Below the pieces are notes generated by a model, which saw only the letters and a list, made by a program, of their open reading frames with translations, was not told where the DNA came from and searched no databases. Made by a program: the position numbers and the translations under genes. From contig JAURQC010000074.1 in the NCBI GenBank assembly GCA_030836325.1, forward strand, positions 1 to 21,094: a stretch of 21,094 bases of DNA, written 5' to 3'. Below are positions 2,814 through 21,094 of the stretch, one piece after another. Each line of letters opens with the position of its first letter. The first letter of the stretch is position 1. The DNA is from Candidatus Nanopelagicales bacterium (GTDB lineage: Bacteria; Actinomycetota; Actinomycetes; S36-B12).

Positions 2814-2912
2814 AAACTCAGGTTCCCACGCGAGCAACATCCGCTGTGCCGATTGCCTCAATCGTTCCCGCGCGTCGCAGTAGGGTCGAGGCTGCAAACT
2901 CGAGGAGGAGCA

Positions 2913-3404
2913 ATGGCCGACAGCAGTTTCGACATCGTGAGTGAAGTGGATAAGCAAGAGGCGGATAACGCCCTCAACCAGGCCGCTAAAGAGGTCTCTC
3001 AGCGTTTCGACTTCAAGAACACCGGGACCACCATCGAGTGGAAGAGCGACATGGTCGTGGAGATCACGTCCTCGACCGAAGAACGCGCAAGCGCCGCCCT
3101 CGATGTGCTGAAGGACAAGATCGTCAAGCGGGGCATCAGCCTCAAGGCCTTCGACCACGGCGACCCACGCTCCTCCGGCAAGGAGTACAAAATCAACGGT
3201 ACGTTCAAGTCGGGTATCTCCTCCGACCAAGCTAAAAAACTCAGCAAGATCATCCGCGACGAAGGGCCAAAGGGCGTCAAGACCCAAATCCAGGGCGACG
3301 AACTTCGCGTAACTCACAAGAGCCGCGATGCACTCCAGGACGTCATCGCCCTCGTCAAAGGATCGGATCTCGACTTCGCGGTCCAGTTCGTCAACTACCG
3401 CTAG
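2913..3404 (+). CDS. yajQ: YajQ family (UPF0234) nucleotide/RNA-binding protein
   Basis: This 163-residue protein matches the YajQ family over its full length and has the usual size. The signature N-terminus [16 protein letters not shown] is followed by the paired-domain pattern containing FDFKNT near 32-37, KRGI near 72-75 and the C-terminal [11 protein letters not shown]. Family members bind RNA or nucleotides, and one characterised Xanthomonas homologue is a cyclic-di-GMP effector; the role here cannot be deduced. The start is fixed by a strong GAGGAGG at 2902-2908 before the ATG at 2913, so the longer open frame from 2853 is not used. It is divergent from the HAD hydrolase. Its 3' end overlaps the 3' end of the NuoI-like ferredoxin gene on the other strand by 14 bp. 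Confidence 0.95.
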
Positions 3405-3729
3405 GCCACCAGCGAGCCAAATCTTCTGTGTGCTGACACAGATCGGAACGGTCCGCGGCTGGGTAATCAAACTGACTTCGCCATTCCAGTGCATCGAACG
3501 GGCAGACTTCGATGCAGATTCCGCAGTACATGCACAGCCCGTAATCGATAGCAAAGTCATCGAGAACGTTCATCTTGCGGGGCCGCCGCGCGCCCTCCTC
3601 CGTGACCTCCTCGGTATGCGACTCCAGGGTGATGCACCAGGAAGGACATTCCCGAACGCACAACATGCACGACGTGCAAGCCTCAGGAAGTAGCGCAATC
3701 ACATTGCGCTTGCCCACAACGTCACTCAT
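3391..3729 (-). CDS. NuoI-like 2x[4Fe-4S] ferredoxin-domain protein (stand-alone paralogue)
   Basis: This small iron-sulfur protein of 112 residues carries two complete CxxCxxCxxxCP motifs (C18/C21/C24/C28 and C66/C69/C72/C76). It should therefore bind two [4Fe-4S] clusters, as NuoI and hydrogenase polyferredoxin subunits do. It is shorter than the real NuoI of this genome (177 residues, 17614-18147) and lacks its N-terminal helix and long tail. There is no transmembrane segment. The start ATG at 3729 lies 8 bp inside the end of the NuoC-like gene, giving translational coupling. It is the last gene of the nuoB-like/nuoC-like/nuoI-like trio and probably passes electrons between a soluble donor and the NuoB-like N2-type cluster. 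Whether it works in complex I, in another complex or as a free ferredoxin is unknown. The last 14 bp overlap yajQ tail to tail. Confidence 0.85.
3425..3442. other. Small inverted repeat just past the yajQ stop
   Basis: A perfect 7-bp stem (TCTGTGT/ACACAGA) with a 4-base loop begins 20 bp after the yajQ stop, inside the 3' end of the NuoI-like gene. There is no T-run on the plus strand and the stem is not GC-rich, so it is at best a weak terminator or RNA-end structure. It could equally be chance. Confidence 0.25.
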
Positions 3730-4198
3730 CGTCAACCCATTCGGCGCGAACACCTGGAGGCAACTTTCGACGGCGCGACCGCTCGTTTTGGTCGCGACCC
3801 GGCCACGGAGTGTCCACTCGCGCAGTCAAAGCCGAGGTCTTGCGTAGCGGTGCGGACAAAGCCGGGGTACGAGCTTGTCGCCACAGCAGCGGCTCAAGAT
3901 CTCCGCGATCGGTGAACTCGATCCCGAACATCTCAGATGTTTCACGCTCGTGCCAATCAGCCCCGGGGAAGCGCGCCACCACGCTGGGCGCTCGAGGAGC
4001 CTCCACGTCGAGTTCACATCTCAACATCTCAGCATTTCCCGACCCGGGATCTACGAGATGCACGAGCAGATAGAGCCGATCGGCGGTGTCGACTGCCGTC
4101 AGCCAATCCACGACATCCAGGCCACGTTCTGCTCGCTCATTGCAGGACTCGACCCAATCGTCAACAAGAACATCCACGATCACATCTGTGGCGTTCAT
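3722..4198 (-). CDS. NuoC-like (complex I 30-kDa subunit family) protein, stand-alone paralogue
   Basis: This 158-residue protein carries the 30-kDa-subunit signature: WHERETSEMFGIEF at 82-95, then a GDLEPLLW segment (99-106) and APLRKTSAL (116-124), corresponding to the HPDLR...PLRKDYPL end of canonical NuoC. The C-terminus is a basic, proline-containing tail (about 133-158). It is soluble, with no membrane segment or cofactor motif, and is probably a scaffold that docks the NuoB-like subunit. The ATG at 4198 overlaps the TGA of the NuoB-like gene by 4 bp, and the NuoI-like gene starts 8 bp before its stop. Longer in-frame extensions upstream lie opposite the NuoB-like gene and are rejected. 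The main nuoC is not in this window; by usual gene order it should lie beyond nuoG. Confidence 0.83.
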   Translation of the reverse strand: MNATDVIVDVLVDDWVESCNERAERGLDVVDWLTAVDTADRLYLLVHLVDPGSGNAEMLRCELDVEAPRAPSVVARFPGADWHERETSEMFGIEFTDRGDLEPLLWRQARTPALSAPLRKTSALTARVDTPWPGRDQNERSRRRKLPPGVRAEWVDDE

Positions 4199-4614
4199 CG
4201 ATCCGCCATCGAATCGACGATTCGCTCCAATTCGGCCACGAGTGCCTCTGGACGTGGCGGACACCCGGGTACATAGGAGAGCACCTGTGCGTTTGTAAGA
4301 ACGTCGTCCAGGCCGGTCACCACACTCGGAGCATCCCAGTAAGGCCCGCCGCTTGTCGCACACGCACCGAAACTCACGACGGCAACCGATCCATGACCGG
4401 AATAGTCGTCGTACATGCGTCGAAGGGCTGGCTCAAGTGCCTTCGTGATGGTTCCAGCGACCACCACAATGGTGTGACGAGTCTCGTCCCCGGCACCGTG
4501 CATCGCCTCGATAAGTCCGCGCTGCGCTGCAGCCTCAACCTCAAGGGTGCAACAGGCAAGACCAGCCCCGACAACGTCGATCGCCACTTCGGGACGGGAA
4601 GCCAATCGCCACAC
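4195..4614 (-). CDS. NuoB-like (complex I 20-kDa/N2-cluster subunit family) protein, stand-alone paralogue
   Basis: This homologue of NuoB and the small subunits of energy-converting hydrogenases has 139 residues. All four N2-cluster ligands are present: adjacent C21/C22 in GLACCTLE, C85 in GACATSGG, and C118 in VPGCPPRPEAL. It should therefore bind an N2-type [4Fe-4S] cluster. It is shorter than canonical NuoB (usually about 160-200 residues), mainly at the N-terminus. The start is uncertain. GTG at 4614 is the first standard start codon after the in-frame stop at 4648-4650, and no strong Shine-Dalgarno precedes it. It is the first gene of the trio and is divergent from korA across 132 bp. 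No NuoD or [NiFe] large-subunit partner is encoded nearby, which is odd because NuoB normally packs against that subunit. Confidence 0.84.
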   Translation of the reverse strand: MWRLASRPEVAIDVVGAGLACCTLEVEAAAQRGLIEAMHGAGDETRHTIVVVAGTITKALEPALRRMYDDYSGHGSVAVVSFGACATSGGPYWDAPSVVTGLDDVLTNAQVLSYVPGCPPRPEALVAELERIVDSMADR

Positions 4615-4746
4615 GTGCCGCAGGCTATCCCGCCCGAGTATTGATGATCACGATTCGGATACCGCCGTGGTGCTGCAAAAGGAAAGGGACCAGAATGTGG
4701 CATAGAGAGAACCCCCTAATCATCTGTTTCACGAGGAAGCGGTGGC
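4615..4746. promoter_or_regulatory. Divergent intergenic region between the NuoB-like gene and korA
   Basis: This 132-bp spacer must hold the promoters of both the nuoB/C/I-like trio and korAB unless one is transcribed from elsewhere. The part next to korA is visibly AT-richer and ends in GAGGAAG (4733-4739), the korA ribosome binding site. I see a TGATCA palindrome at 4645-4650 and a loose GTAT/ATAC pair (4638-4641, 4659-4662), but no -10/-35 pair good enough to call. Shared regulation of the two units is an inference from the arrangement. Confidence 0.4.
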
Positions 4747-6621
4747 ATGACCAAGCAGGTTGTCGAGGTCGATCGCGTCGTCATCCGATTCGCCGGCGAT
4801 TCCGGCGACGGAATGCAACTGACCGGAGACCGATTCACATCCGAAGCGGCATGGATGGGCAACGACCTGCTCACCCTGCCCAACTTCCCGGCCGAGATCC
4901 GCGCCCCAGCCGGAACCTTGCCCGGTGTCTCAAGCTTCCAGCTGGCTTTCGCCGACCACGACATCACGACCCCGGGTGATCAGCCAAACGTCCTAGTGGC
5001 CATGAACCCTGCAGCCCTCAAGGCGAACATCGGCGACCTTCCCCGCGGATCTGATCTCATCGTCAACACCGACGAGTTCACCAAGCGCAATCTGGAGAAG
5101 GTCGGCTACACCCAAAGCCCCTTGGAGGACGACTCCTTGGAGGCCTACCGCCTCCATCCCATCGCGCTCACCTCGATGACAGTCGAAGCGCTGAAGGAAT
5201 TCGACATCACAAAGAAGGAAGCAGAGCGGGCAAAGAACATGTTCGCCCTCGGCCTACTTCTGTGGCTCTACCACCGACCGACTGAGGGAACGATCGAATT
5301 CCTCGAGAAGAAATTCGCCAGCAAGCCCGAAATCATGAAGGCGAACATCGCTGCATTCCAGGCTGGCTGGTCCTACGGCGAGACCACCGAGGAGTTCTCG
5401 GTTCAGTACGAAGTAAAGCCGGCTCCCATGGAAACCGGCACTTACCGGAACATCACCGGGAATCTCGCCTTGTCCTACGGGCTCATCGCTGCCTCGGAGA
5501 AGTCTGGACTTCGACTCTTCCTCGGGTCCTACCCGATCACGCCGGCGTCGGACATCCTGCATGAACTCAGCAAGCACAAGCGGTTCGGCGTGATGACATT
5601 CCAGGCCGAGGACGAAATCGCCGGCATCGGTGCGGCGCTCGGGGCCTCCTATGGCGGCTCACTCGGAGTCACAACTACGTCAGGCCCAGGCATCGCCCTG
5701 AAGTCCGAGACCATCGGGCTGGCAGTCTCGCTCGAACTTCCACTACTCGTAGTCAATGTTCAGCGCGGTGGACCCTCGACCGGACTGCCCACAAAGACCG
5801 AGCAATCCGACCTGCTCCAGGCGATGTTCGGACGAAACGGAGAATCACCAGTCCCGATCGTCGCGCCTCAGAGCCCATCCGACTGTTTCGACGCAGCCCT
5901 CGAGGCGGCTCGCATAGCGATCACGTACCGCACGCCCGTGTTCCTACTGTCCGACGGCTACCTAGCCAACGGCTCTGAGCCTTGGCAACTTCCCGACGTC
6001 GATGCGTTGCCTAGCATCGATCCAAACTTCGCGACCGAGCCGAACCACACCAAGGAGGACGGCTCATCTGAGTTCTGGGCCTACCAGCGCGACCCCGAAA
6101 CACTGGCCCGTCCCTGGGCCATCCCAGGAACCGCAGGCCTTGAACACCGCATTGGCGGCCTTGAGAAGGCTGATGGCTCGGGAAACATCTCCTACGATCC
6201 CGAGAACCACGATCACATGGTTCGCCTCCGACAAGCCAAGGTCGACGCAATAGCGGACTCGATCCCCGATATCGAGGTGGAAGACCCCAGCGGAGAAGCC
6301 CGGATTCTCATTCTCGGTTGGGGATCCACCTACGGACCCATCGGTGCTGCCTGCCAGATCGCCCGACGCTCCGGCATCAAGGTCGCCCAGGCGCACCTAC
6401 GGCATTTGAACCCGTTCCCGAAAAACCTAGGCGAGGTCCTTCGGTCCTACGAACGCGTTGTGGTGCCCGAGATGAACCTCGGGCAGTTGAACATGCTGCT
6501 GCGCTCTGCGTTCCTCGTCGACACGTACGGCTACAACCAAGTCCGAGGCTTGCCCTTCAAGTCGTCAGAACTCGTAGATGTAATAACCGAACTTTCCCAG
6601 CAGATGGAGGAGTCGCGATGA
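4747..6621 (+). CDS. korA: 2-oxoacid:ferredoxin oxidoreductase, fused gamma-alpha subunit (2-oxoglutarate type)
   Basis: KorA and KorB together oxidatively decarboxylate a 2-oxoacid with CoA and reduce ferredoxin, giving a CoA-dependent, NAD-independent route through the TCA cycle in aerobic actinobacteria. The 624-residue protein has the gamma domain at the N-terminus (GDSGDG at 17-22, gamma family pattern to about 200). The pyrimidine-binding alpha domain follows from about 235, with YPITPASDI at 262-270, QAEDEI at 286-291, TSGPG at 311-315 and GPSTGLPTKTEQSDL at 342-356. The C-terminal domain ends with MNLGQLNMLLRS and GYNQVRGLPF. No ferredoxin domain is fused. The ATG at 4747 has a GAGGAAG seven bases upstream. 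The stop overlaps the korB start (ATGA). 2-Oxoglutarate as substrate rests on family resemblance to actinobacterial KorA; other 2-oxoacids are not excluded. Confidence 0.93.
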   Translation: MTKQVVEVDRVVIRFAGDSGDGMQLTGDRFTSEAAWMGNDLLTLPNFPAEIRAPAGTLPGVSSFQLAFADHDITTPGDQPNVLVAMNPAALKANIGDLPRGSDLIVNTDEFTKRNLEKVGYTQSPLEDDSLEAYRLHPIALTSMTVEALKEFDITKKEAERAKNMFALGLLLWLYHRPTEGTIEFLEKKFASKPEIMKANIAAFQAGWSYGETTEEFSVQYEVKPAPMETGTYRNITGNLALSYGLIAASEKSGLRLFLGSYPITPASDILHELSKHKRFGVMTFQAEDEIAGIGAALGASYGGSLGVTTTSGPGIALKSETIGLAVSLELPLLVVNVQRGGPSTGLPTKTEQSDLLQAMFGRNGESPVPIVAPQSPSDCFDAALEAARIAITYRTPVFLLSDGYLANGSEPWQLPDVDALPSIDPNFATEPNHTKEDGSSEFWAYQRDPETLARPWAIPGTAGLEHRIGGLEKADGSGNISYDPENHDHMVRLRQAKVDAIADSIPDIEVEDPSGEARILILGWGSTYGPIGAACQIARRSGIKVAQAHLRHLNPFPKNLGEVLRSYERVVVPEMNLGQLNMLLRSAFLVDTYGYNQVRGLPFKSSELVDVITELSQQMEESR

Positions 6622-7676
6622 CAACCGAAGCGTTCCCCGCACTGTCCCTCGTGCCGAAGTCGGACGTGGAGATGAAGGCCAAGGACTTCAAGACCGATCA
6701 AGAAGTCCGCTGGTGCCCCGGCTGCGGCGACTACGCGATTCTCGCTGCCGTCCAAGGCTTCATGCCCGAGATGGGCCTCAAGCGCGAGAACATCGTGTTC
6801 GTCTCAGGAATCGGCTGTTCGTCACGCTTCCCGTATTACATGAACACCTACGGTGTGCACAGCATCCATGGGCGCGCTCCGGCTATCGCCACGGGACTTG
6901 CCACCACGCGACCCGACCTGTCGGTGTGGGTTGTGACAGGTGACGGCGACGCCCTGAGCATCGGTGGAAACCACCTCATCCATGCCCTACGACGCAACGT
7001 GAATCTAAAAATCCTGCTGTTCAACAACCGGATCTACGGCCTCACCAAAGGCCAGTACTCTCCCACCTCCGAGCAGGGCAAGGTCACTAAGAGCACGCCT
7101 CAGGGATCCGTCGACTACGCCTTCAACCCAGTCTCGGTGGCACTTGGTGCCGAAGCCACGTTCGTTGCTCGGACAATCGACTCCGACCGAAAGCACCTCA
7201 CGGACGTTTTGCGCGCTGCGGCTGCCCACGAAGGCTCGGCGCTGGTTGAGATCTACCAGAACTGCAACATCTTCAACGACGGTGCCTGGGAGCCGCTCAA
7301 GGAAAACGACGTTCGCGAGGACAACCTGATTCGGCTCGAGCACGATCAGCCGATCATCTTTGGCAATCAGCAAGACAAGTGCGTGATCCGCGACATCGAC
7401 GGCCATTTGCAGGTGAAAACGATCGCTGAAGTCGACCAGTCGGAAATCATCATCTTCGATGCCCACGCGAAGGATCCCGGACTGGCGTTCGGCCTCTCGC
7501 GGCTCTACAACCCGCGCACGCTCACGAACACCCCGATCGGCATCTTCCGGGACGTCACGCATCGAGAGGCATACGACCGCATGGCTCAGCAGCAGGTGGC
7601 TGATGTCATCGAAGCCGAGGGTCCGGGCGACTTACGCACGTTGCTGCACGGCAGCGACACCTGGACCATCAACTGA
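6618..7676 (+). CDS. korB: 2-oxoacid:ferredoxin oxidoreductase, beta subunit (thiamine-diphosphate binding)
   Basis: This 352-residue catalytic beta subunit binds thiamine diphosphate and a [4Fe-4S] cluster. CPGCGD at 33-38 supplies two cluster cysteines and C67 (GIGCSS) a third. GDGD at 108-111 begins the Mg-thiamine diphosphate motif, which continues to the LLFNNRIYGLTKGQYSPT segment. A further conserved cysteine lies in the NCNIFNDGAW region. The ATG at 6618 overlaps the korA TGA by 4 bp and is preceded by GGAGGAG at 6606-6612, so the longer frame upstream (from 6318) is a shadow of korA. It is translationally coupled to korA. The reduced ferredoxin it makes is a plausible electron donor for the neighbouring NuoB/C/I-like proteins. 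The RarD-type transporter follows without a gap. Confidence 0.94.
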   Translation: MTTEAFPALSLVPKSDVEMKAKDFKTDQEVRWCPGCGDYAILAAVQGFMPEMGLKRENIVFVSGIGCSSRFPYYMNTYGVHSIHGRAPAIATGLATTRPDLSVWVVTGDGDALSIGGNHLIHALRRNVNLKILLFNNRIYGLTKGQYSPTSEQGKVTKSTPQGSVDYAFNPVSVALGAEATFVARTIDSDRKHLTDVLRAAAAHEGSALVEIYQNCNIFNDGAWEPLKENDVREDNLIRLEHDQPIIFGNQQDKCVIRDIDGHLQVKTIAEVDQSEIIIFDAHAKDPGLAFGLSRLYNPRTLTNTPIGIFRDVTHREAYDRMAQQQVADVIEAEGPGDLRTLLHGSDTWTIN

Positions 7677-8626
7677 GCACGGGTACCGACGACACCTCAG
7701 CCCAACACCGACTCGGGCTGCTCCTTGGCGTATCCGCATGGGTGATGTGGGGCCTTTTCCCTCTGTACTTCACCCTTCTTGATCAGGTGGCACCCCTTGA
7801 GGTGGTCGCCCATCGGATTATCTGGACTCTGGTCTTTCTCATCATCGTGATTTCTATCGCTCGCAATTGGGGCAGTGTGCGACGGGCAATGAATAAGCGC
7901 ACGCTGCTGATACTGCTTGTTGCAGCCGTGTTTATCTCTATCAACTGGCTTGTCTACGTCTACGCCGTTGCCAGCGACCAACTTGTCCAAGCCTCACTCG
8001 GCTACTTCATCAATCCACTCATCTCAGTTGCGCTCGGAGTGCTGTTGCTCCGCGAACGTCTGCGTCGTCTTCAGTGGGTGGCGGTCGTCATCGCGATCGT
8101 GGCGGTCGTCATCTTGACCGTCAGCTACGGGGCACTGCCGTGGATCAGTCTCACTCTCGGCCTGAGCTTTGGCATGTACGGCCTTCTCAAGAAACTCGCC
8201 AACGTCGGATCCACGGACAGCCTGGTGATCGAGACTGCTGCCTTGGCGCCCTTCGCCCTAGCCCTGATGGGGGTGTGGGAGGCAAACGGACAAGCCGCCT
8301 TCGCGCTCGATGGCTGGCAGATAAGCGTGCTGCTGATACTGCTCGGCCCGGTTACGGCCCTGCCGCTCTTGGCCTTCGGTGGGGCCGCAACGCGTATCCC
8401 GCTCTCCACGTTGGGTGTCCTTCAATACATCACGCCGATCTTCCAGTTCAGCATCGGCGTCTTCATCTTCGGCGAAGCGATGCCTGGATCTCGCTGGCTC
8501 GGTTTCCTGTTCATCTGGTCCGCCCTAGTGGTCTTTTCCACCGACGCCTACCGTCATTCCCGAAACAGGCAGCAAACCAAGAACGAAAAACTGATTGAGG
8601 AACTCGAGATCGGTGAGGTTACGTGA
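7673..8626 (+). CDS. rarD: RarD-type EamA/DMT-superfamily permease (CTG start proposed)
   Basis: This inner-membrane transporter of the drug/metabolite superfamily has about ten hydrophobic helices. It resembles RarD along its whole length: GLFPLYF in helix 1, HRIIWT, ASLGYFINPLISVALG, STLGVLQYITPIFQF, then a charged C-terminal tail. The substrate is unknown. The first standard start codon is GTG at 7742, but that would cut helix 1 in half. The in-frame codons upstream encode RLGLLLGVSAWVMWG, the expected first half. No ATG, GTG or TTG lies between the in-frame stop at 7601 and 7742. I therefore propose CTG at 7673, which overlaps the korB TGA as CTGA and gives 317 residues; CTG at 7718 is an alternative. 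From GTG at 7742 it would be 294 residues. It is probably cotranscribed with korAB, although a functional link is not evident. Confidence 0.85.
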   Translation: MSTGTDDTSAQHRLGLLLGVSAWVMWGLFPLYFTLLDQVAPLEVVAHRIIWTLVFLIIVISIARNWGSVRRAMNKRTLLILLVAAVFISINWLVYVYAVASDQLVQASLGYFINPLISVALGVLLLRERLRRLQWVAVVIAIVAVVILTVSYGALPWISLTLGLSFGMYGLLKKLANVGSTDSLVIETAALAPFALALMGVWEANGQAAFALDGWQISVLLILLGPVTALPLLAFGGAATRIPLSTLGVLQYITPIFQFSIGVFIFGEAMPGSRWLGFLFIWSALVVFSTDAYRHSRNRQQTKNEKLIEELEIGEVT

Positions 8627-8672
8627 ACTAGCCTTCAATGAGGATGTAGGAAAAGTCACTCGCTAGTTCGCG
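8622..8672. terminator. Inverted repeat across the convergent gene junction, possible bidirectional 3'-end structure
   Basis: CGTGAACTAGC (8622-8632) pairs with GCTAGTTCGCG (8662-8672): ten Watson-Crick pairs plus one G-T, with a 29-base loop. It covers the rarD stop codon and the stop of the repeat protein, which are separated by a single base. There is no T-run of the kind found at classic terminators, so it may be an RNA-end-stabilising hairpin instead of a terminator. The role is inferred only from position. Confidence 0.35.
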
Positions 8673-10403: not shown

Positions 10404-10460
10404 GTGCGAACCTCCTCGCCAGATACTGACACAACGTTGAGCCAACTGAGAAGGCAGTGA
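10404..10460 (-). promoter_or_regulatory. 5' region of the secreted repeat protein
   Basis: Only 57 bp separate the operon terminator from the start of the repeat protein. If that gene is transcribed independently its promoter must lie here or overlap the terminator. I see a strong AGGAGG at 10411-10416 (seven bases from the ATG) and a weak TATCTG-like element, but no -35/-10 pair I would defend. Confidence 0.3.
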
Positions 10461-10485
10461 GAAAAGTGGGGTGCTAGTACCCCAC
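10461..10485 (-). terminator. Rho-independent terminator of the nuo/polyprenyl-synthase operon
   Basis: On the minus strand a GTGGGGT/ACCCCAC stem of at least seven pairs (10485-10466), with a short loop containing CTAG, is followed directly by TTTTC. It begins 36 bp past the stop of the polyprenyl synthase and precedes the next gene on the same strand, which is where the operon would be expected to end. Confidence 0.75.
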
Positions 10486-10520
10486 CCGGAGCCAAGGAAG
10501 GACGTGAATATTCGGCGCAC

Positions 10521-11519: not shown

Positions 11520-11531
11520 GGCTCGACGGTA

Positions 11532-13064
11532 CTACCGGATGAAGACATCGGCATTTGTGACCAGATCCAAGATGGGCTGGGGAACCACACCCAAGATCAC
11601 AGTCACAGCCACGCCCGCCGCCAGGGCGACGGTGGTGAAGGCTGAGGGGATCGCCACGGACGCCGTCTGCTCGGTCTCCTGGGCGAAGAACATGACCACG
11701 ATCACCCGTACGTAGAAGAAGGCGGCAATCAGGCTGGCAACCACACCCACGAGGACCAGCCAGACCATGCCCGCCTCGATTGCCGCCGCGAACACTCCGA
11801 ACTTGCCGACGAATCCGGACGTGAGCGGGATTCCGGCCAAACCCAGCATGAATATCGCGAAGGCGGATGCCACGATCGGCGATTTCCGACCGATACCCGC
11901 CCAGGATGCCAGATTCGTTGCCTCGCCGTTGGGATCACGGATCATCGAGATGATCGCGAAGGCTCCGATCGTGGTGAAACCGTAGGCAATGAGATAGAAC
12001 ATCGTGCTTGCGATGCCAGCAGCGGACGCAGCGGCTACACCGATAAGGATGAAGCCAGCCTGGGCGACCGAAGAGTAAGCGAGCATGCGCTTCACATCGG
12101 TCTGGACGACCGCCACGATCGAACCCACGAGCATCGTCAGGATCGCCACGATCCAGATGATGGGCTCCCAATCCCAGCGAACACCACCGAAGGCCACGTA
12201 GAGGATGCGCAGCAGTGCGCCAAAGGCCGCGATCTTGACCGTTGCGGCCATGAAACCGGTGACGGGCGTGGGCGCTCCCTGGTAAACATCAGGCACCCAC
12301 TGATGGAACGGCACCGCGCCGACCTTGAACAGCAGGCCGATGAGGACCATGCCCAGGCCGATCATCAAGACAAGCGACTCACCGGGCTTGCTGGTGACGG
12401 TCTGGGCGATTTCGGGGAACGTGATGGAACCTGCATAGCCGTAAACGAGTGCCGCCCCGTAGAGGAAGAAGGCGGATGAGAAAGCACCGAGGAGGAAGTA
12501 CTTCAGGGCAGCTTCCTGGCTGAGCAAACGACGACGCCTGGCCATGCCGGTCATCAAGTACAACGGCAGGGACATGACTTCTAAGGCGATGAACATCACG
12601 AGCAAATCGTTCGCCGAGACGAAAAGCATCATGCCGAGGACCGCGAACAGCGTCAGTGGCCAGATCTCGGTCTGCAGGTAGCCGCGCTGGGTGAACTGCT
12701 TCTCTTCCTCCGAGCCAGGGAGGGAAGACACCCGTGAGGCGAAGGCATCTCCCACGGAATCGATCGAGCGCTCGGCCATTAATGCCGCCCCGAGGATCGA
12801 GATGACCACGATTGCACCCTGCAGGACCAGAGCGGGACCGTCGATCACCACCGCCTGTCCGGCCGTAACCGTCCGAGTCGAAGCGTTGATAACGATCAGC
12901 ACGGCAGCTGCGATGAGCGAGCCGAACACGATGAGCAACTGCAGGTAGCGTCGAACGCCACGAGGAGTGAAGGCCTCGACGAGGACAGAGACGATCGCGG
13001 CGGCAAAGACAACGATCATCGGGGCGATCGCTACATAGTCGATGGCAGGAGGCGTGTAGTTCAC
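11532..13064 (-). CDS. nuoN: NADH-quinone oxidoreductase subunit N
   Basis: This antiporter-like membrane subunit of complex I has 510 residues and about 14 helices, and contributes one proton channel of the membrane arm. The family pattern PFHQWVPDVYQGAPTPVTGF is followed by the helix containing AATVKIAAFGALLR with its conserved lysine. Further on, LVGSIVAVVQTDVKRMLAYS and SVAQAGFILIG are typical of NuoN. The start is GTG at 13064, set by a near-perfect AAGGAGGT (13077-13070) five bases upstream and a 4-bp GTGA overlap with the nuoM stop. An internal soluble stretch at about 96-120 (RVSSLPGSEEEKQF) interrupts the N-terminal helices, as seen in actinobacterial NuoN. Confidence 0.96.
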   Translation of the reverse strand: MNYTPPAIDYVAIAPMIVVFAAAIVSVLVEAFTPRGVRRYLQLLIVFGSLIAAAVLIVINASTRTVTAGQAVVIDGPALVLQGAIVVISILGAALMAERSIDSVGDAFASRVSSLPGSEEEKQFTQRGYLQTEIWPLTLFAVLGMMLFVSANDLLVMFIALEVMSLPLYLMTGMARRRRLLSQEAALKYFLLGAFSSAFFLYGAALVYGYAGSITFPEIAQTVTSKPGESLVLMIGLGMVLIGLLFKVGAVPFHQWVPDVYQGAPTPVTGFMAATVKIAAFGALLRILYVAFGGVRWDWEPIIWIVAILTMLVGSIVAVVQTDVKRMLAYSSVAQAGFILIGVAAASAAGIASTMFYLIAYGFTTIGAFAIISMIRDPNGEATNLASWAGIGRKSPIVASAFAIFMLGLAGIPLTSGFVGKFGVFAAAIEAGMVWLVLVGVVASLIAAFFYVRVIVVMFFAQETEQTASVAIPSAFTTVALAAGVAVTVILGVVPQPILDLVTNADVFIR

Positions 13065-14608
13065 TGCTGACCTCCTTCACTCGAGAGCACGGGGTCTGGG
13101 TCGACCGCCGAGATGGTGTTCATGGTCCAGTCGACCGCTGGGTTGATGACGTTCAGCAGCGGTGCTGGGTAGAAGCCCAGGGTGATGGTGAGCGCGGCAA
13201 TCGGTACGAGTGCCGTGATCTCCCGGCCCTTGAGGTCGGTGATGCCTTCGACGCTCGGATTGACTGGTCCGGTCATGGACTTCTGGTAGAGCCGCAGCAC
13301 GTAGGCCGCGGTAATCACGATGCCCAGGGTGGCGACGGCGCCGACCCACAAGTAGCGCTCGAAGGCACCCAGCAGCACGAGGAACTCACCCACGAAGGAC
13401 ACCAGGCCTGGTAGAGCTAGCGAGGACAGCGCCGCTACCAGGAAGAAGCCGGCCAGCACCGGAGCAACCTTGTTGACACCGCCATAGTCGGAAATGAGAG
13501 CCGACTGGCGACGCCTGGACATCAAGAACCCGGCGGTCAGGAACAACGCGGCCGTGGAGAGACCGTGCGCCACCATGTACACCACGGAACCGGACTGCCC
13601 AGCGCTGGTGAAGACAAAAATGCCAAGGGCGATGAATCCGAAGTGGGACATCGAGGAATAGGCGAACAGTCGCTTCATGTCCTGCGCGGTGAGAGCCACG
13701 TAAGCGCCGTAGAAGATGCCGATCAGCGCCATGCCGATGACCACGGGTGCGTAGAACTCACTTGCAGCAGGAAAGATCGGCAGGCAATAGCGGATCATTC
13801 CGAAGGTGCCCACCTTGTCCAGAACACCGATCAGGAGCACCGAGGTGCCTGGCTTGGACTGAGCAGCAGCGTCCGGCAGCCAGGTATGGAATGGCCACAG
13901 CGGGGCCTTGATCGCGAAGGCGAAGAAGAAGCCGAGGAACAGCATCTTCTGGGTGTTCGGATCCATGTCCATGCCCACGAGAGACAGGAAGTCAAAGGTT
14001 CCGGTGCCAAGTTCTTGTGCCGAGACGACGTATAGGCCTATCAACGAAGCGAGCATGAACAGCCCACCGAGCAGGCTGTAGAGCAAGAACTTGATGGCGG
14101 CGTAGGAGCGCTGCGGACCGCCGTAGCGACCGATCATGAAGTAAACCGGCACCAGCATGACTTCGAAGAAGACATAGAACAAGAACACGTCGGTGGCCGA
14201 GAACACACCGATCATCAAGGCTTCCAGAGCCAAGATCAATGCGAAGTAGCCCTTGACCGAACCCTCGGACTCTTGATCTCCCTCGATGTCGCGCCAGCCG
14301 GCGAGGATGACGATGGGAACGAGTGTGGCCGCAAGGGCGACGAGCACGAGTCCGATGCCGTCCAGCCCCACGGAGTAGGAGATGCCGAAGGCAGGGATCC
14401 AGGGATAGGACTCCACAAACTGGAACGGAGCGCTGGAAGCTCCATCGAACTGGAGCGCCATGGCAATGGTCAGCGCGAGCACAGCAAACGAGACAACGAG
14501 CGCGACCTGCTTGGCGAGCGTCGGCTTCGATCTGGGCAGTAAGGCGACCACGATGCTGCCGACCAACGGCAGCACCCCGAGGGTGGTCAACCAGGGGAAC
14601 GCACTCAC
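13061..14608 (-). CDS. nuoM: NADH-quinone oxidoreductase subunit M
   Basis: This antiporter-like proton-pumping subunit of the complex I membrane arm has 515 residues and about 14 transmembrane helices. Recognisable segments are FYVFFEVMLVPVYFMIG with the conserved channel glutamate, WPFHTWLPDAAAQSKPGTS, and the following VLDKVGTFGMIRYCL, an actinobacterial form of the NuoM lysine helix. YSSMSHFGFIALG follows. The start is GTG at 14608, whose first base is the last base of the nuoL TAG, so translation is probably coupled. The stop overlaps the nuoN start by 4 bp. The C-terminal residues after the last helix are short and acidic. Confidence 0.96.
   Translation of the reverse strand: MSAFPWLTTLGVLPLVGSIVVALLPRSKPTLAKQVALVVSFAVLALTIAMALQFDGASSAPFQFVESYPWIPAFGISYSVGLDGIGLVLVALAATLVPIVILAGWRDIEGDQESEGSVKGYFALILALEALMIGVFSATDVFLFYVFFEVMLVPVYFMIGRYGGPQRSYAAIKFLLYSLLGGLFMLASLIGLYVVSAQELGTGTFDFLSLVGMDMDPNTQKMLFLGFFFAFAIKAPLWPFHTWLPDAAAQSKPGTSVLLIGVLDKVGTFGMIRYCLPIFPAASEFYAPVVIGMALIGIFYGAYVALTAQDMKRLFAYSSMSHFGFIALGIFVFTSAGQSGSVVYMVAHGLSTAALFLTAGFLMSRRRQSALISDYGGVNKVAPVLAGFFLVAALSSLALPGLVSFVGEFLVLLGAFERYLWVGAVATLGIVITAAYVLRLYQKSMTGPVNPSVEGITDLKGREITALVPIAALTITLGFYPAPLLNVINPAVDWTMNTISAVDPDPVLSSEGGQQ
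13070..13077 (-). promoter_or_regulatory. Strong Shine-Dalgarno fixing the nuoN GTG start
   Basis: AAGGAGGT on the minus strand lies inside the 3' end of nuoM, five bases before the nuoN GTG. It is the best anti-16S match noticed in the nuo segment and may keep nuoN translation independent of coupling. Confidence 0.7.
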
Positions 14609-16500
14609 TACAGCCTCACCAGGATCAGCGCGAGGGCGACGATGAGGGCGCCCCCGACCATGGACAACGCGTACGAACGGGCGAACCCGCTTTGACTACG
14701 CCGCAACCGGCGTGCGAGATCTCCGACGAAGGCCCCGGTCCAGTTGACGAAACCGTCGACCGCCTTGGTGTCGAAAGTGGTTAGCGCATCGGCCGTGCGG
14801 TACGTCGGCTGCACCACCAGGACATCGTTCACGGCATCGCCGTAAAGGTCCTGACGCGCAGCCCGCGTGAGCACGTTGCCCCGCGGCGCCTCGACCGGCA
14901 CGTCCTTGCGGGCGTACATAACCCAACCGATGATGGCACCGATGATGACGACTATGAGCGTGACGCCAATGTAGAACGACGTCGGCAACGGCGTCGGTAC
15001 GGACTCGTATCCGACGACCGGCTCGAGCCATTCTTCAATGTTGCCCCAGAAGAGCAGCGCCATCCCCATGAACGTGGAGCCGATCGCCAAGATGATCAGC
15101 GGAATCGTCATGACCGCCGGGGACTCGTGCGGATGAGCGTCGTCCTCCCAGCGCTTTTTGCCGAAGAAGGTCATCGCGATCATCCGGGTCATGTAGAAAC
15201 CGGTGATGCCCGCAGCCAGGATGGCGGCGGCACCGATCACCCAGTTGCGCTCGAAAGCGGCGTGGATAATTTCGTCCTTCGACCAGAAGCCGGAGAACGG
15301 AGGGATGCCGATAATTGCGAGGTACCCGGCCATGAAGGTGATGAATGTGATCACCATGACGCCCTTGAGCGCGCCATACCTGCGCATGTTGACGTTGTCG
15401 TTCATGCCGTGCATGACCGATCCAGCACCGAGGAACAAACCGGCCTTGAATACGCCATGTGTGAGCAGGTGGAAAATCGCGAAGACGTAGCCGATCGGCC
15501 CCAGACCAGCAGCAAAAACCATGTACCCGATCTGGCTCATGGTTGATCCAGCCAGAGACTTCTTGATGTCGTCCTTGGCCGAACCGATGATGGCACCCAT
15601 GAAGATGGTGATCAGGCCAACGACGACGACGGCCGTCGCGGCCCACGCGGCTGCGTCGTAGATCGCGTTGCTGCGGGCAATGAGGTACACGCCGGCGGTC
15701 ACCATCGTTGCAGCGTGGATGAGGGCCGAGACCGGGGTCGGACCCTCCATCGCGTCCAAGAGCCAGGCTTGGAGAGGGAACTGTGCGGACTTACCGGCGG
15801 CTGCAAGCAAGAGCAGGAGGCCGATGGCAGTGAGCGTGCCCTCACTGGCCTCACTCGCCTGACCGAACACATCCTGGAACGTGATCGAACCGAAGGTGAT
15901 GAAGATCAGCATGATCGCCAGGGAAAGGCCAACGTCACCGACCCGGTTGATGATGAATGCCTTCTTCGCAGCGGCGGCGGCGCTCGGCTTTTGCTGCCAG
16001 AAACCAATCAACAGATAGCTGGCAAGACCAACGCCCTCCCAGCCGACATAGAGCAGGAGGTAGTTGTTAGCCAGCACCAAGATGAGCATCGCGGCAACGA
16101 ACAAGTTCAGGTATCCGAAGAACTTCCGACGATCGGGGTCGTGGGACATGTAGCCGAGTGAGTAGATGTGGATCAGGGCACCGACGATGGTGATGAGCAA
16201 CACGAAGACCATTGAGAGCTGGTCCAACTGCAGCGCGAAGGACGCTTGGAATGATCCAACAAAGACCCAGTCGTAGACGTTCTGAACCACGGTCCGCTGC
16301 TCGGCGGGCTGGTCCATCATCGCTAGCAGCATCAGCACGCCGAGCACCGCGGACCCAACCACGGTCAGCACACCGAGGTAGGGACCCCAGGAGTTTGTTC
16401 GTCGACCGCCGAAGAGAAGGATCACCGCACCTGCAGCCGGGAGTGCTATCAACACCCACAGCAGTGCGAAGATCCCCTCGGCGGGGATGATCTCGGTCAC
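14608..16500 (-). CDS. nuoL: NADH-quinone oxidoreductase subunit L
   Basis: This is the distal antiporter-like subunit of complex I, with 630 residues and about 16 helices plus the lateral helix expected near the C-terminus. Signature segments are [16 protein letters not shown], the [20 protein letters not shown] channel region followed by [15 protein letters not shown], and [10 protein letters not shown] charged stretch near 540-600 lies before the final hydrophobic helix, matching the lateral-helix region. The start is GTG at 16500, 23 bp after the nuoK stop, with AGGA at the right distance. That is the widest gap within the visible nuo genes. The stop overlaps the nuoM start by one base. 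Confidence 0.96.
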
Positions 16501-16523
16501 GTAGTCGTCCTATTCGCTATTGG

Positions 16524-16823
16524 TCAGTACTTCAACAGGTTGGGTTCGTCGATCGATGCAGATCGTCGGGTTCTGAAGATCGTCACAATGATCGCCAAGC
16601 CGACGACGACCTCAGCGGCAGCAACAACCATTACGAAGAAGGCGACGACCTGACCGTCCAAGTTGCCGTTCATCCGCGCGAATGCGACAAAGGCCAAATT
16701 GGCAGCATTCAGCATCAACTCGACGGACATGAACACGATGATCGCGTTGCGCCGCACCAGCACACCGATGGCTCCGATGCTGAAGAGCAGCGCCGAGAGC
16801 ATGACGTAGTTCGCCGGGTTCAT
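16524..16823 (-). CDS. nuoK: NADH-quinone oxidoreductase subunit K
   Basis: This small proton-translocating membrane subunit has 99 residues, the usual size, with three helices. The two buried glutamates essential in this family are visible: E35 in [14 protein letters not shown] and E71 in [11 protein letters not shown]. The ATG at 16823 overlaps the nuoJ TGA by 4 bp. The C-terminus (about 84-99) is a short basic/polar tail. Confidence 0.96.
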
Positions 16824-17617
16824 CGGTCCTCGCCCTCGGTCGACATCGAACCTGCGGAGAGCTGGCGGACCTCGTCAAGTTCGGCCTGATCAACGTCGCG
16901 GACGTCCTCGCGGACCCGCAAGGGCTCGGGCACGCTGAGATCGCTTGTGCTTCCGTCGGGAAGCAACGCGGGGGTGTCGACCGCATTGTGACGTGCGTAG
17001 ACGCCCGGGGGTGGAAGTTGACCGGGGTGCTCGCCAGAGGCGAACCGGTCTTGCGAGAGTTCGCGCTGGGTTCGCTTGGGCATCCAGCGTTCGCGGTGGG
17101 TCAGGATCATCGCGCCCATGGCCGCCGTGATCAGCAGGGCTGCCGTGACCTCAAAGGCGATCAGGTAGGGGCCGAACATCAACGAGGCCAGGCCTTCGAC
17201 GTTGCCACCCTGAGCAGCGTTGGCGGCATCTAGGCCGACGGACGAAGTCTCCATCAAGCCGTTTCCGATCCCTGCCACTAGCAGGATCGAGAAACCAATA
17301 CCCAGCAGAAAGGCAGCCACTCGTTGACCCTTGATGGTTTCGATCAGCGAATCGGAAGAATCGACGCCAACCACCATCAACACGAACAAGAACAGCATCA
17401 TCACCGCGCCGGTGTAAACGATGATCTGCACCATGCCCAAGAAGGGGGCCGAATTCGCGACGTACAAGATCGCGAGGTTCACCATCGTCAACGCGATGAA
17501 GAGCGCACTGTGAACGGCCTTTCGTGAAATGACCATTCCAAGAGCACCGATAACCGCCAGCGTGCCGCTCACCCAAAAGACGATGGCCTCGCCGATACCT
17601 ACTTCACCGCCGTTCAT
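16820..17617 (-). CDS. nuoJ: NADH-quinone oxidoreductase subunit J
   Basis: This complex I membrane subunit has 265 residues. Five helices occupy about residues 8-175, including the conserved [19 protein letters not shown] segment around the pi-bulge helix. The last 85-90 residues form a hydrophilic, proline- and acid-rich tail ([21 protein letters not shown] and onwards) absent from the E. coli protein (about 184 residues). Extended tails of this kind are usual in actinobacteria, so I treat it as real. ATGA overlaps join it to nuoI upstream and nuoK downstream. Confidence 0.95.
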
Positions 17618-18147
17618 GAGGCTTGCTCCTGCTCGGGGACCGAACCGGTCACCTTGTTGGCGTAGTAGTCCTGCTCAGTGGTTCCAGGGACCATCGGGTG
17701 TGGCGGCTGGATCATGCCCGGCAGTAGGGGTGCAAGCAGCTGGTCCTTCTCGTAGATGAGATCGGCTCGACTGCTGTCTGCAAGCTCGTACTCATTGGTC
17801 ATGGTCAACGCCCGAGTCGGGCAGGCCTCAATGCAAAGCCCGCAGAAGATACAGCGCAGATAGTTGATCTGGTAGACGCGCCCGTACCGCTCCCCCGGCG
17901 AGTAGCGCTCCTCATCGGTGTTGTCCGCACCCTCAACGTAGATCGCATCCGCCGGGCACGCCCACGCGCACAGTTCGCAGCCGACGCACTTCTCGAGCCC
18001 ATCCGCCCAGCGGTTCAGTTGATGTCGTCCGTGGAAACGGGGCTTGGTGGGTTGCTTATCTTCGGGGTACTGCTCGGTGACGACCTTCTTGAACATCGTC
18101 CCGAAGGTAACTCCGAAGCCGCGTACGGCTTGGGGCAACTCAGCCAT
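17614..18147 (-). CDS. nuoI: NADH-quinone oxidoreductase subunit I
   Basis: This peripheral-arm subunit carries the N6a and N6b [4Fe-4S] clusters. It has 177 residues, with [12 protein letters not shown] at 54-65 and [12 protein letters not shown] at 99-110. An amphipathic N-terminal segment ([16 protein letters not shown]) sits on the membrane. The C-terminal tail (about 135-177) is proline-rich and polar. A GAGGAGG six bases upstream fixes the ATG at 18147, which overlaps the end of nuoH by 8 bp. It is clearly distinct from the shorter NuoI-like protein at 3391-3729. Confidence 0.96.
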
Positions 18148-19528
18148 TCGAGTCCTCCTCGTTCACGGTTGCCTCGTTCGTGGTTGCGTCATCTGTGCTC
18201 TCTTCACTGAGGGTTGCCGTCGCACTGCCGGCGCCTAATTCAGCCTTGGTGACCGTCGCGCGGCGTGGCGTGTACTCGAATCGTTGTCCGGGCAGAGGCG
18301 GCACCGGGTGACCCGTGGCAGCACCGGTCAAGACCTCATTCACTCGACGCGCATTGTCTTCTTCGGCCAGGGCCCGACGCTCCTCCTTGCGGTTGGCTCG
18401 GATCTGGAAAAGCCACGAACCACCGAGAAGGACGACGATCACTACCGCCCCGATGAGGAGTAGTTCAGTGTTGGACAACGCGACATCGTTACGGAACAAG
18501 CGTGCGACGGAAACGATGACGACCCAGACCAACGCAGCCGGGATCAGCACTTTCCAGCCAAACTTCATGAACTGGTCGTAGCGCAGACGCGGGAGCGTTC
18601 CGCGAAGCCAGATAAAGATGAAAATGAACAACTGCACCTTGATCAGCCACCACAGCACGGGCCACCATCCTGAGTTGGCGCCCTCCCACAGCGACAGCGG
18701 CCAGGGTGCGAGGTACCCACCGAGGAACAAGGTGGTGGCCAGGGCAGAAACGGTGACCATATTGATGTACTCAGCGAGGAAGAACATCGCGAACTTCAGC
18801 GACGAGTACTCGGTGTGGAACCCACCGACGAGCTCGCCCTCGGCCTCGGGGAGGTCGAAGGGTGCACGGTTGGTCTCTCCCACCATCGAGGTGACGTAGA
18901 TCAGGAAGCTCGGCAACAAGATCACTGCGAACCAGATCGGCTGCTGGGCCAAAACGATTTCGGACGTGGACATCGAGCCCGCGTAGATGAACACCGCAAC
19001 GAATGACAGTCCCATGGCAATTTCGTACGAGATGACCTGGGCTGTAGACCGCAGTCCACCAAGCAGTGGGTAGGTCGAACCAGAGGACCAGCCGGCCAGC
19101 ACCAGGCCGTAGACGCCAATCGATGCGATCGCCAGAACGTAGAGAACCGAGACCGGGAAATCAGTCAGCTGAAGCGGGGTCTCAACTCCAAAGACCGAGA
19201 CGGTGGGACCGAAAGGTATGACAGCGAAGGCTACGAATGCTGCGGTCGCCGAGATGACCGGTGCGATCCAGTAGACACCAACGTGCGCCGCCTTCGGAAT
19301 GATCTCTTCCTTGAAGGCAAGTTTGAAACCGTCCATCAAGGATTGCAAAAGCCCCTGGGGACCGACGCGGTTGGGGCCGATCCGGTTCTGCATCCGCGAT
19401 ACGACGCGGCGCTCCCACCAGATGGTGAACAGGGTCAGCAGGACGAGGAGCGCAAAGATGGCAACCGTCTTACCGAGAACCATCCACCACGGGTCGGTTC
19501 CAAAGAGACCGAATTGACCTCCGGTCAT
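18140..19528 (-). CDS. nuoH: NADH-quinone oxidoreductase subunit H
   Basis: This membrane subunit forms the quinone-access chamber of complex I. It has 462 residues, well above the roughly 325 of E. coli NuoH. The conserved loop [20 protein letters not shown] and FKLAFKEE follow helix 1, and later [18 protein letters not shown] and [10 protein letters not shown] are diagnostic. Eight helices are followed by a ninth hydrophobic stretch ([19 protein letters not shown]) and a soluble tail of about 85 residues that is first basic, then Thr/Ser/Glu-rich. The ATG at 19528 overlaps the nuoG TGA (ATGA), and GGGAGGT lies five bases upstream (19540-19534). The longer open frame reaching 19825 is antisense-like extension into nuoG and is rejected. 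Confidence 0.95.
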
Positions 19529-21094
19529 GCCGGACCTCCCTTGCTGAGTCGGACGACGTCGCCGTAGCCAGCGCCGAGGTCCCGGTAGACGCGACTGCCC
19601 TCGGAATTCGTTGGCAGCCACACCACCGAATCGATCATGGAGTCGTCGATTTCTACGGACACGGTGATCGATCCCGAGGGACCGTGAACGGTGACCTGGC
19701 CACCAGCCTCGATGCCGTGTCCGGTTGCCGTGGACGAAGACATGCGCGCCGTGGTGGGACGTGCGGTAGCCGCTAGGTGTGGCTCGCCCTCTTGCATGAC
19801 GCCAAGGTCGAGCAGAAGGCGCCACGTGGCCAGGCGGACTGCCTCGCGGTCAGTTGGGACGGCAGCGCTACGCGTCGGCGATGTTCGGGCACCTGTCCAA
19901 GCGCCGAGGCGGCCGAGTTCACCGCGCAACTCCGACACCGTTCGTGGTGATGCGACACCGAGCTCGTCCGCCAGCATGGCGAGCACGGATGCATCCGAAT
20001 CCATCATGGCGTCGCGGAAAACCTGCCCGAAGGGACGCGGGCGACCTTCCCAGTCCAGGAAGGTGCCGGCCTTCTCGCTGACAACCGCGACTGGAAAGAC
20101 GACGTCGGCCATGGCCGTGATCGCCGAATGATGGTTTTCCAAGGAGACCACGAAATCGACGTTGCCCAACGCCTCGGCAATGTCTTCGGGGTAGTCGGAG
20201 GCTTCGACACCCGCGACGAGCGCGCTTCGTACCGAGCCGGCCAGCATGGCTTCGCGTAGCGCTCCACCGGAGAGTCCCGGTTGCGGGAGCGCATCGACGT
20301 CGACGTTCCACGCAGCGGCGACCTGGTCGCGTGCCTGCGGGTCATCGAGGGGACGGCCGCCGGGCAGGAGTCCGGCGAGTGCGCCGGCATCGAGCGCACC
20401 ACGCTCACCCGCGCGGCGGGGAACCCACGCCAGGGCAGCACCGGTCTGCTCGGCCAGTTGCGCAACGGCCGACAACGTTCCGGGAGCTGTCGCAGCGCGC
20501 TCGCCCACCATGATCACCGCGCCGGGTTGGGCAAGCGCATCACGGACGTCTGCCGGAAGAGACTCGACAGCCTTTGCTTCATCGCCAGGGACCGCGGGAA
20601 CGAGGGTGCCGTTCATCTTGGACAGGCCACGGCTCGCGCCAGCAGCGACCGAGTAGACACGTGTTCCCGAGGTCGAGGCCTTGCGAAGCCGCAGGAACAC
20701 GATCGGGGATTCATCTTCCGGCTCGAATGCGACGAGCAGCACGACCGGTGACTTTTCAAGATCGGCGTACTCGATCCGCATCGGCGTTCCCGCCACCTTC
20801 GCAGCAAGGAAGTCGCGTTCTTCTGCTGACGCTGCGCGGGCCCGGAAGTCAATATGGTCCGTTCCCAATGCAACCCGGGCGAAGCGGGAATAGGCGTAAG
20901 CGTCTTCCATTGTTGCTCGGCCACCTACGAGCACCGCGGTGTCCGAGCCGGCAGCCTGCAAGCCTCGGGCAGCAATTGCAAGGGCCTCGGGCCAAGACGC
21001 TGTGCGCAGCTCGCCGTTCTCGCGCACCATCGGCCACTCGAGCCGACCCTGCTGCATGTATGCGAAGGCGAAACGGCCTTTGTCGCAGTTCCAC
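19525..21094 (-). CDS. nuoG: NADH-quinone oxidoreductase subunit G, C-terminal part (cut by window edge)
   Basis: NuoG is the large iron-sulfur subunit of the complex I electron-input arm. Only about 522 C-terminal residues are here. The frame is open to the window end, beginning with [12 protein letters not shown], so the ATG near 21057 is internal and not the start. The visible part is the catalytically inert molybdopterin-oxidoreductase domain, with [18 protein letters not shown] and [11 protein letters not shown], then a final beta-rich domain ending RLSKGGPA. The N-terminal [2Fe-2S]/[4Fe-4S] cluster domains should lie beyond 21094. It overlaps nuoH by 4 bp. Its presence shows that the main complex I here includes the NADH-side module, unlike the F420- or ferredoxin-only reduced forms. 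Confidence 0.94.

Follow-up and report, generated by a model that had tools for sequence, protein, structure and literature searches.

The 21,094-nucleotide stretch of Candidatus Nanopelagicales bacterium DNA analysed here (assembly GCA_030836325.1, contig JAURQC010000074.1; hereafter the window) carries on its minus strand three overlapping genes encoding short homologues of the complex I subunits NuoB, NuoC and NuoI. These proteins are designated NuoBx, NuoCx and NuoIx, and their genes together are called the trio (Table 1). The trio genuinely exists, its genes are intact and purifying selection acts on them. The best explanation is that it encodes three of the four subunits of a derivative, without a membrane arm, of the second, 11-subunit complex I of actinobacteria, the fourth being an unlinked paralogue of the large subunit NuoD (NuoDx), so that the four would make up a soluble or peripheral electron-transfer module; the probability of this reading is put at about two in three. 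The four proteins presumably form one complex, and the window's own genome is expected to encode a NuoDx as its relatives do; the genome-level results given below are those of relatives of the window's organism.

The NuoB-NuoC-NuoI trio

All three proteins exceed the cut-offs of the corresponding Pfam models. NuoBx reaches 55.3 bits against Oxidored_q6 (cut-off 27), NuoCx 71.5 against Complex1_30kDa (cut-off 22.5), and NuoIx, scanned as 3391-3753, 46.5 against Fer4 (cut-off 21.1), Pfam having no NuoI-specific model. The NCBIfam cut-offs for NuoB, NuoC and NuoI place the trio outside canonical 14-subunit complex I (77.3 vs 142.7, 46.5 vs 122.45 and 63.5 vs 113.05, respectively); the canonical NuoI of the same window passes (148.1; 314.5 vs a cut-off of 163). 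In 36 aligned rows, the window's own row being included twice, C85 and C118 of NuoBx never vary and C21 and C22 hardly ever do, and both four-cysteine motifs are present in NuoIx. An earlier description made from the letters of this DNA (the sequence-only reading) had reported three overlapping minus-strand homologues, four intact ligands of cluster N2, eight cluster cysteines in NuoI and a normal nuo operon about 7 kb away. The Pfam scans, gene overlaps and cysteine alignments bear this out, and the canonical operon starts at 11532, about 6.9 kb from the trio. It had also stated that neither a large subunit nor NuoH adjoins the trio, which is true of the window.

A first genome scan with NuoBx alone as query found no relative, and 56 genomic loci were fetched with a profile built from NuoBx relatives. 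Genes for B, C and I are all present in 50 of them; of the other six, four (L047, L048, L054 and L056) are cut by contig ends and two (L051 and L053), from one Chloroflexota and one Coriobacteriia genome, are complex I clusters. Among the 50 complete loci, korA is present and divergent in 42 and yajQ lies downstream in 44, and in many relatives the trio is situated near the nuoL-M-N end of the canonical operon. Seven loci (L001, L015, L022, L023, L029, L031 and L032) bear the labels Rubrivirga or Bifidobacterium breve, which match neither gene content nor tree positions, and their genomes are probably mislabelled or mixed metagenome bins.

Selection was estimated by a simple Nei-Gojobori count of the ratio of non-synonymous to synonymous substitution rates (dN/dS) in nine pairs per gene, some of them with saturated silent sites. 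The ratio was 0.02-0.19 for NuoBx, 0.13-0.29 for NuoCx, 0.03-0.15 for NuoIx and 0.01-0.05 for KorA, and one NuoIx pair showed no amino-acid change at all. Values of 0.02-0.29 across the trio imply purifying selection and, with 50 complete trios in other genomes, uphold the earlier view that these genes are not decaying.

An unlinked large subunit

Forty of the 50 genomes with a complete trio were tested for further subunits, those of L004, L013, L015, L019, L020, L022, L023, L025, L029 and L032 lying outside this set, and a NuoD paralogue away from the trio was found in 38. In the first set, 12 of 12 genomes encode a second NuoD-like protein of about 375 amino acids unlinked to the trio; in two cases (G001 and G003) it stands on the same contig, some 65-68 kb off. 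In the second set NuoDx was found in 26 of 28 genomes (24 whole, one split and one at a contig end). The NuoB family in the first 12 comprises one canonical protein and NuoBx, with a third match in three genomes. A complex without a large subunit is therefore rejected. The sequence-only reading had held that there was none, and had regarded a large subunit elsewhere in the genome, with matching phylogeny, as evidence against itself; beyond the window such a subunit is present, and its tree has the matching order.

The distances between NuoDx proteins follow those of the trio. With the contribution of canonical NuoN removed, the partial correlations of D with B, C and I are 0.60, 0.60 and 0.54 (0/999 permutations as high), against 0.25 for YajQ (9/999), -0.14 for GGPPS and 0.40 for KorA (1/999). 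Mean protein distances are 0.46-0.85 for B, C, D and I vs 0.19-0.34 for YajQ, KorA, NuoN and GGPPS.

Descent from a second complex I

When the NuoDx profile was run over 296 Actinomycetota genomes, the strongest matches, besides G003, came from 11 genomes of a Streptomyces type, a label given by gene order, in which the match is located apart from the second NuoB. Several forms of the second complex I (nuo2) were recovered. Complete A-B-C-D-H-I-J-K-L-M-N operons were fetched from G174, G270 and G211, with that of G036 cut after A-B-C-D-H, while G258, G140 and G097 have A-B-C-H-I-J-K-L-M-N with D elsewhere. The cluster of G074 reads A-B-C, a NuoH of 123 amino acids, I and perhaps a remnant of J, with no match for K-N in the cluster; the short NuoH gene (L151, 10930-11301) lies between nuoC and nuoI and matches Pfam NADHdh with 45 bits in two short stretches. 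G074 is thus a transitional form with a shrunken membrane subunit.

In a NuoD tree of 79 rows the order is canonical, full 11-subunit, Streptomyces type and then trio NuoD. A single, much-branched clade (Shimodaira-Hasegawa-like approximate likelihood ratio test 99) holds the trio NuoDs, G008 (Marihabitans) branching first within it, and G211 splits off ahead of the remaining full 11-subunit rows; long branches are flagged by the method. This tree and the site table below cover 36 of the 38 NuoDx genomes, the split protein of G316, the partial one of G317 and rows below 250 amino acids having been dropped. The 41 non-trio rows comprise 11 canonical ones, 11 of Streptomyces type (G074 among them) and 19 regarded as full 11-subunit; of these 19, four had their arm checked, and most of the others were so assigned from a match to NuoB some 2-3 kb away or less. 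The NuoB tree has the same order. Both are quick trees, rooted on canonical plus hydrogenase rows and with X letters removed from some rows, and the outgroup of the NuoB tree is not one side of a branch. By NuoB and NuoD the system falls within the 11-subunit complex I of nuo2 type, apart from canonical Nuo, and the trio with NuoDx most likely belongs to the second complex I of actinobacteria, next to the Streptomyces type.

A hydrogenase remnant, which the sequence-only reading had named as its other possible undoing, is rejected by the distribution of PF00374, by the NuoD tree and by sequence-profile scores, all of which point to a reduced complex I. Nine of 12 trio genomes gave no match to PF00374 (NiFe large subunit), and where it did match, in three genomes, the protein was not NuoDx; complex I profiles score above hydrogenase profiles for both B (93 vs 61 bits) and D (254 vs 151 bits). 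In the NuoB tree a pair of hydrogenase sequences is placed inside the trio group on a branch of length 8.4, which is read as long-branch attraction. A structural model of NuoDx (predicted local distance difference test, pLDDT, 81.6) has complex I NuoD in all 50 best-listed matches, and for the NuoBx model (pLDDT 80.5) complex I NuoB chains come first by E-value. Two hydrogenase-like clusters with NuoB-, NuoM- and NuoD-like genes (L169 of G004, which also has a NuoH-like gene, and L170 of G010) are separate from the trio system.

Membrane arm and contact elements

Downstream of the 50 complete trios, over the 0-9333 bases of DNA available, not one membrane nuo gene was seen. Thirty-four of the 40 trio genomes have a single NuoH gene, canonical by score (in pieces in G003, G316 and G329); none was found in G314 and G335, and more than one in G004, G008, G010 and G312. 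The extra NuoH of G004 sits in a hydrogenase-like cluster, and the second one of G312 scores like the canonical one. Antiporter-type matches, counted in 26 of the 40 genomes, number exactly three in 16. Deviating counts are two in G311, four in G320 and G323 (one gene split) and six in G002 (the canonical set on two contigs); G003, G007, G004 and G334 have extra matches, and G008 and G010 have those of an orphan arm and others. Judged by NuoA, H and J-N, the trio system thus stands outside nuo2-type complex I, with G008 and G010, whose orphan arm may be of other descent, as possible exceptions, and the membrane arm seems to have been lost in the trio lineage.

Parts of the remaining subunits that would face the arm are altered as well. 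The SLW segment before the NuoB cysteine pair and the PRQAD loop after it occur in 37 of 37 second-complex rows and in none of 46 trio rows; canonical rows have them in 9 of 11 and 11 of 11, respectively. The 46 trio rows include the window, the motif search having missed eight of 54 (L006, L011, L012, L039, L040, L042, L044 and L045). The 37 second-complex rows derive from 29 genomes, G074 included, with eight genes fetched twice and 22 different cores; for 14 of the 29 the presence of a second arm was checked (by a second NuoH, full-size or cut, in 13, and by the operon of G211), the rest being assigned by tree. The N-terminal helix motif of NuoI is present in seven of seven fuller operons, again including G074, and in none of 50 trio proteins; the one positive row among 18 trio-locus NuoI rows in one screen is the canonical NuoI of L055.

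In NuoD the quinone gate is eroded. The Thr of HPxTHG is found in 2/36 trio vs 41/41 other rows, the His of SSHL in 8/36 vs 40/41, the acidic residue of GMELGAL, in a gappy column, in 11/36 (three Glu and eight Asp) vs 40/41, and the quinone-site His in 26/36 vs 41/41. The shell of N2 is invariant in NuoDx (the arginine, RHD and Trp, 36/36). By its quinone-gate and membrane-contact elements, too, the system departs from nuo2-type complex I.

A MidA-family neighbour of NuoDx

The gene next to NuoDx encodes a protein of PF02636, which we take to be the family of MidA/NDUFAF7. This identifies the gene as a methyltransferase, and a membrane-anchor role for it, which had been considered, is rejected. 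In 25 of 35 trio-type loci it sits upstream of NuoDx in the same orientation, within 322 bases in 24, so that the relatives combine a linked PF02636 gene with a NuoD bearing the target arginine. Near Streptomyces-type NuoD genes a member of the family was found in 8 of 11 loci within the stretch of DNA available, mostly on the opposite strand. By genome, the family was found in 12/16 trio, 11/11 Streptomyces-type, 0/5 full 11-subunit and 2/17 canonical-only genomes, the last chosen by NuoDx-profile scores. One of those two, G291, has the MidA-family gene directly beside a second NuoB (G291:C21:965495-966769), its best NuoD score having looked canonical-only.

The target arginine is present in 36/36 trio NuoDx, 11/11 Streptomyces-type and 19/19 full-type rows, and is replaced by Thr in 11/11 canonical rows. 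An apparent exchange of Arg and Thr between NuoD and NuoB beside N2 emerges when L058 and L158 are set against L097-L114, canonical actinobacterial NuoD having Thr and second-complex NuoD Arg; at what looks by eye to be the corresponding place in NuoB, the canonical protein has Arg and the second one Ala. An excerpt of PMC3829151 reports that MidA/NDUFAF7 dimethylates Arg85 of NDUFS2, and one of PMC8042128 an Arg/Thr exchange in Thermus between the NuoD-type subunit and its NuoB partner.

Proposed function and alternative explanations

If the four proteins work together, ferredoxin, or else the divergently encoded 2-oxoacid oxidoreductase KorAB itself, would supply NuoIx with low-potential electrons, which would go on to N2 in NuoBx; the cleft between NuoBx and NuoDx would then hand them to an acceptor other than a membrane quinone in the usual tunnel. 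Such a module would move electrons without proton pumping; its NuoDx arginine next to N2 is a possible substrate of MidA. With no NuoH of its own and an eroded quinone gate, the module is unlikely to reduce quinone in the ordinary, pumping way. The further proposal that NuoBCDI-x constitutes a new class of soluble oxidoreductase derived from complex I can be put forward only tentatively: electrons would run from ferredoxin or KorAB through NuoIx and N2 to the reworked NuoBx/NuoDx cleft and on to a soluble or surface acceptor, with no arm, quinone tunnel or pump, and a methylated arginine would tune N2. The sequence-only reading had offered a soluble iron-sulfur wire or a module docking in trans on complex I. 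A soluble module remains plausible, with its partner, NuoDx, supplied in trans, but docking on the canonical enzyme is disfavoured, since quinone-gate residues of NuoD, and those stretches of NuoB and NuoI that are turned towards the membrane arm, are lost or eroded.

Several observations weigh against the interpretation of the trio as part of an arm-less second complex I. No NuoDx was found in two of the 28 further genomes (G319 and G322), most trio genomes are metagenome-assembled according to their titles, and downstream DNA extends for at least 3 kb in just 25 of 50 loci. Uncorrected D distances correlate with NuoN (r 0.82) as closely as with B (0.81), C (0.81) and I (0.76). An unlinked orphan A-H-J-K-L-M-N operon, a possible partner in trans, exists in G008 and in G010 (Raineyella). 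Of the 36 NuoDx, 26 still have the quinone-site His, and the change of Tyr to Trp, once considered a sign of quinone-site loss, was rejected as such, the Trp being common to all second-complex NuoDs, full 11-subunit and Streptomyces-type ones included. In G074, despite its shrunken arm, the motifs of NuoB and NuoI and the gate of NuoD persist; loss of the arm was thus not simply accompanied by trimming in this genome. Full 11-subunit relatives have the arginine but lack a MidA-family gene in five of five genomes. By template modelling (TM) score the hydrogenase subunit MbhJ fits the NuoBx model as well as NuoB does (0.70 vs 0.58-0.69 among the matches listed), and fold alone therefore leaves NuoB vs hydrogenase undecided. 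Lastly, KorA is absent from six of 16 trio genomes tested, a figure that is no frequency since seven of the 16 had a korA-less trio locus; KorAB thus cannot be the sole donor, it is rejected as an obligate partner, and free ferredoxin is the simpler donor.

The alternative that survives best, though unlikely, is an exchangeable peripheral arm: NuoBCDI-x would replace the NADH-oxidising arm on canonical NuoA/H/J-N, and ferredoxin or KorAB would drive the ordinary pump. It is favoured by the location of the trio, which in the window lies about 7 kb from the canonical operon and in many relatives close to its nuoL-M-N end, by the single NuoH gene of most trio genomes and by the close tracking of NuoN by D distances. 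The membrane-facing NuoB and NuoI segments are gone, however, and the NuoD gate is eroded; in the canonical and second complexes used for comparison these parts are retained.

It is quite unlikely that B-C-I and D are instead subunits of the KorAB enzyme, serving a larger 2-oxoacid oxidoreductase as its accessory iron-sulfur unit. The divergent korA of most trio loci agrees with it, as do the korAB genes situated some 4 kb away from the second complex I of a Streptomyces-type genome (L150, G140) and the partial correlation of D with KorA. Trio genomes without KorA tell against it, that correlation is weaker than those of D with B, C and I, and NuoIx scores 37 bits against the PorD/KorD delta model TIGR02179, below the cut-off of 60.05.

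Very improbable is a split complex, i.e. an enzyme complete but scattered, with its membrane arm encoded in trans by the orphan operon. The two orphan operons, one of them in the first-branching G008, would suit it, but one NuoH gene is the rule in trio genomes, and NuoH-like genes scoring about the same (138-152 bits) are present in G183, G194 and G174 in addition to a complete second NuoH. Since they coexist with a second full NuoH there, the orphan arm is probably another system. A dying nuo2 relic without function, to which fast evolution and lost parts might point, is barely credible given the low dN/dS, the NuoIx pair without amino-acid change, the retained cysteines and N2 shell, and the single many-branched clade of trio NuoDs.

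Genomic surroundings

The trio operon faces away from korAB and converges with a conserved neighbour, a yajQ homologue, which is probably context only. KorB, scanned as 6615-7676, scores 253.7 bits against TIGR02177 (cut-off 261.9). Between GGPPS and RarD-like genes the window encodes, at 8628-10520 on the minus strand, a protein of 630 amino acids whose only match is a sub-threshold beta-propeller (DUF5122); in L003, L005, L006 and L007 there is no room for it between these two genes. A tRNA-Tyr (GTA) gene lies at 2026-2111 on the minus strand, downstream of a HAD-family hydrolase gene.

Table 1. Features of the window and orphan membrane-arm operons of relatives.
Feature	Position	Strand	Remarks
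NuoBx	4195..4614	-	GTG start, 139 amino acids; four N2-cluster cysteines; without SLW segment and PRQAD loop
NuoCx	3722..4198	-	158 amino acids; short homologue of the 30-kDa subunit; ATGA overlap with NuoBx
NuoIx	3391..3726	-	NuoI-like, 2x[4Fe-4S]; ATG at 3726, within the 3' end of NuoCx; without N-terminal helix motif
Intergenic region between divergent trio operon and korAB	4615..4746	.	132 bases, from coordinates
KorA, 2-oxoacid:acceptor oxidoreductase alpha subunit	4747..6621	+	TIGR03710, 671 bits; divergent from trio
KorB, beta subunit	6618..7676	+	Overlaps korA; start by eye from translation
yajQ homologue	2910..3404	+	Start approximate; convergent conserved neighbour of trio
Canonical complex I operon, of which nuoN to nuoG fall in the window	11532..21057	-	Paralogous system; NuoI scanned, other names by eye
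Orphan arm, L172	G008:C2:373000-388000, 5276-13533		No B, C, D or I recognised beside it; J by position
Orphan arm, L173	G010:C22:280000-296000		No B, C, D or I recognised beside it; J by position

Significance and comparison with known systems

Complex I is usually viewed as an electron wire and an ion pump that are inseparable, and here evolution appears to have separated them, the wire to N2 staying under selection after the pump has gone and the quinone gate has eroded. Intermediates seem to survive in the linked 11-subunit operon, the unlinked nuoD2, the 123-amino-acid NuoH and the absence of any arm. The trio allows questions to be asked about the role of the N2/NuoD site without a membrane, the identity of the donor and the reason why the MidA arginine is retained, and suggests that orphan nuoBCI genes in Actinomycetota are more than annotation noise. 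Among the matches listed in the open-licence PubMed Central (PMC) literature, nothing was found in print on a NuoBCDI or B-C-I system devoid of a membrane arm.

The NuoBCDI part of canonical 14-subunit complex I shares four homologues and the cluster ligands with the trio system; it differs in having an NADH module and a pump, carries Thr for Arg in NuoD and branches apart. Group 4 [NiFe] hydrogenases (Mbh, formate hydrogenlyase) show distant homology in both small and large subunits, but their NiFe large subunit is not matched by NuoDx. With the NDUFAF7/MidA and NDUFS2 Arg85 system, in the excerpts of PMC3829151 and PMC8042128, the trio lineage has in common the PF02636 gene beside NuoDx and an invariant target arginine; methylation is reported for Arg85, and the NuoDx arginine is a putative target. 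The 11-subunit complex I of Desulfitobacterium, in the part of PMC11238625 consulted, has the same B-C-D-I core without an NADH module but keeps the membrane arm and quinone reduction, whereas the trio system is without A, H and J-N; that source mentions ferredoxin-type donors as proposed for the 11-subunit enzyme, with no common donor known. Nearest of all, in both the NuoB and NuoD trees, is the Streptomyces-type group. The second cluster of Streptomyces (nuoA2, B2, D2, H2-N2), as far as an excerpt of PMC3765725 describes it, resembles the trio lineage in lacking NuoEFG and in having nuoD2 apart from the cluster, an arrangement that is therefore already in print; it has a membrane arm, the N-terminal helix motif of NuoI and the PRQAD loop of NuoB, and the trio lineage is without all three.

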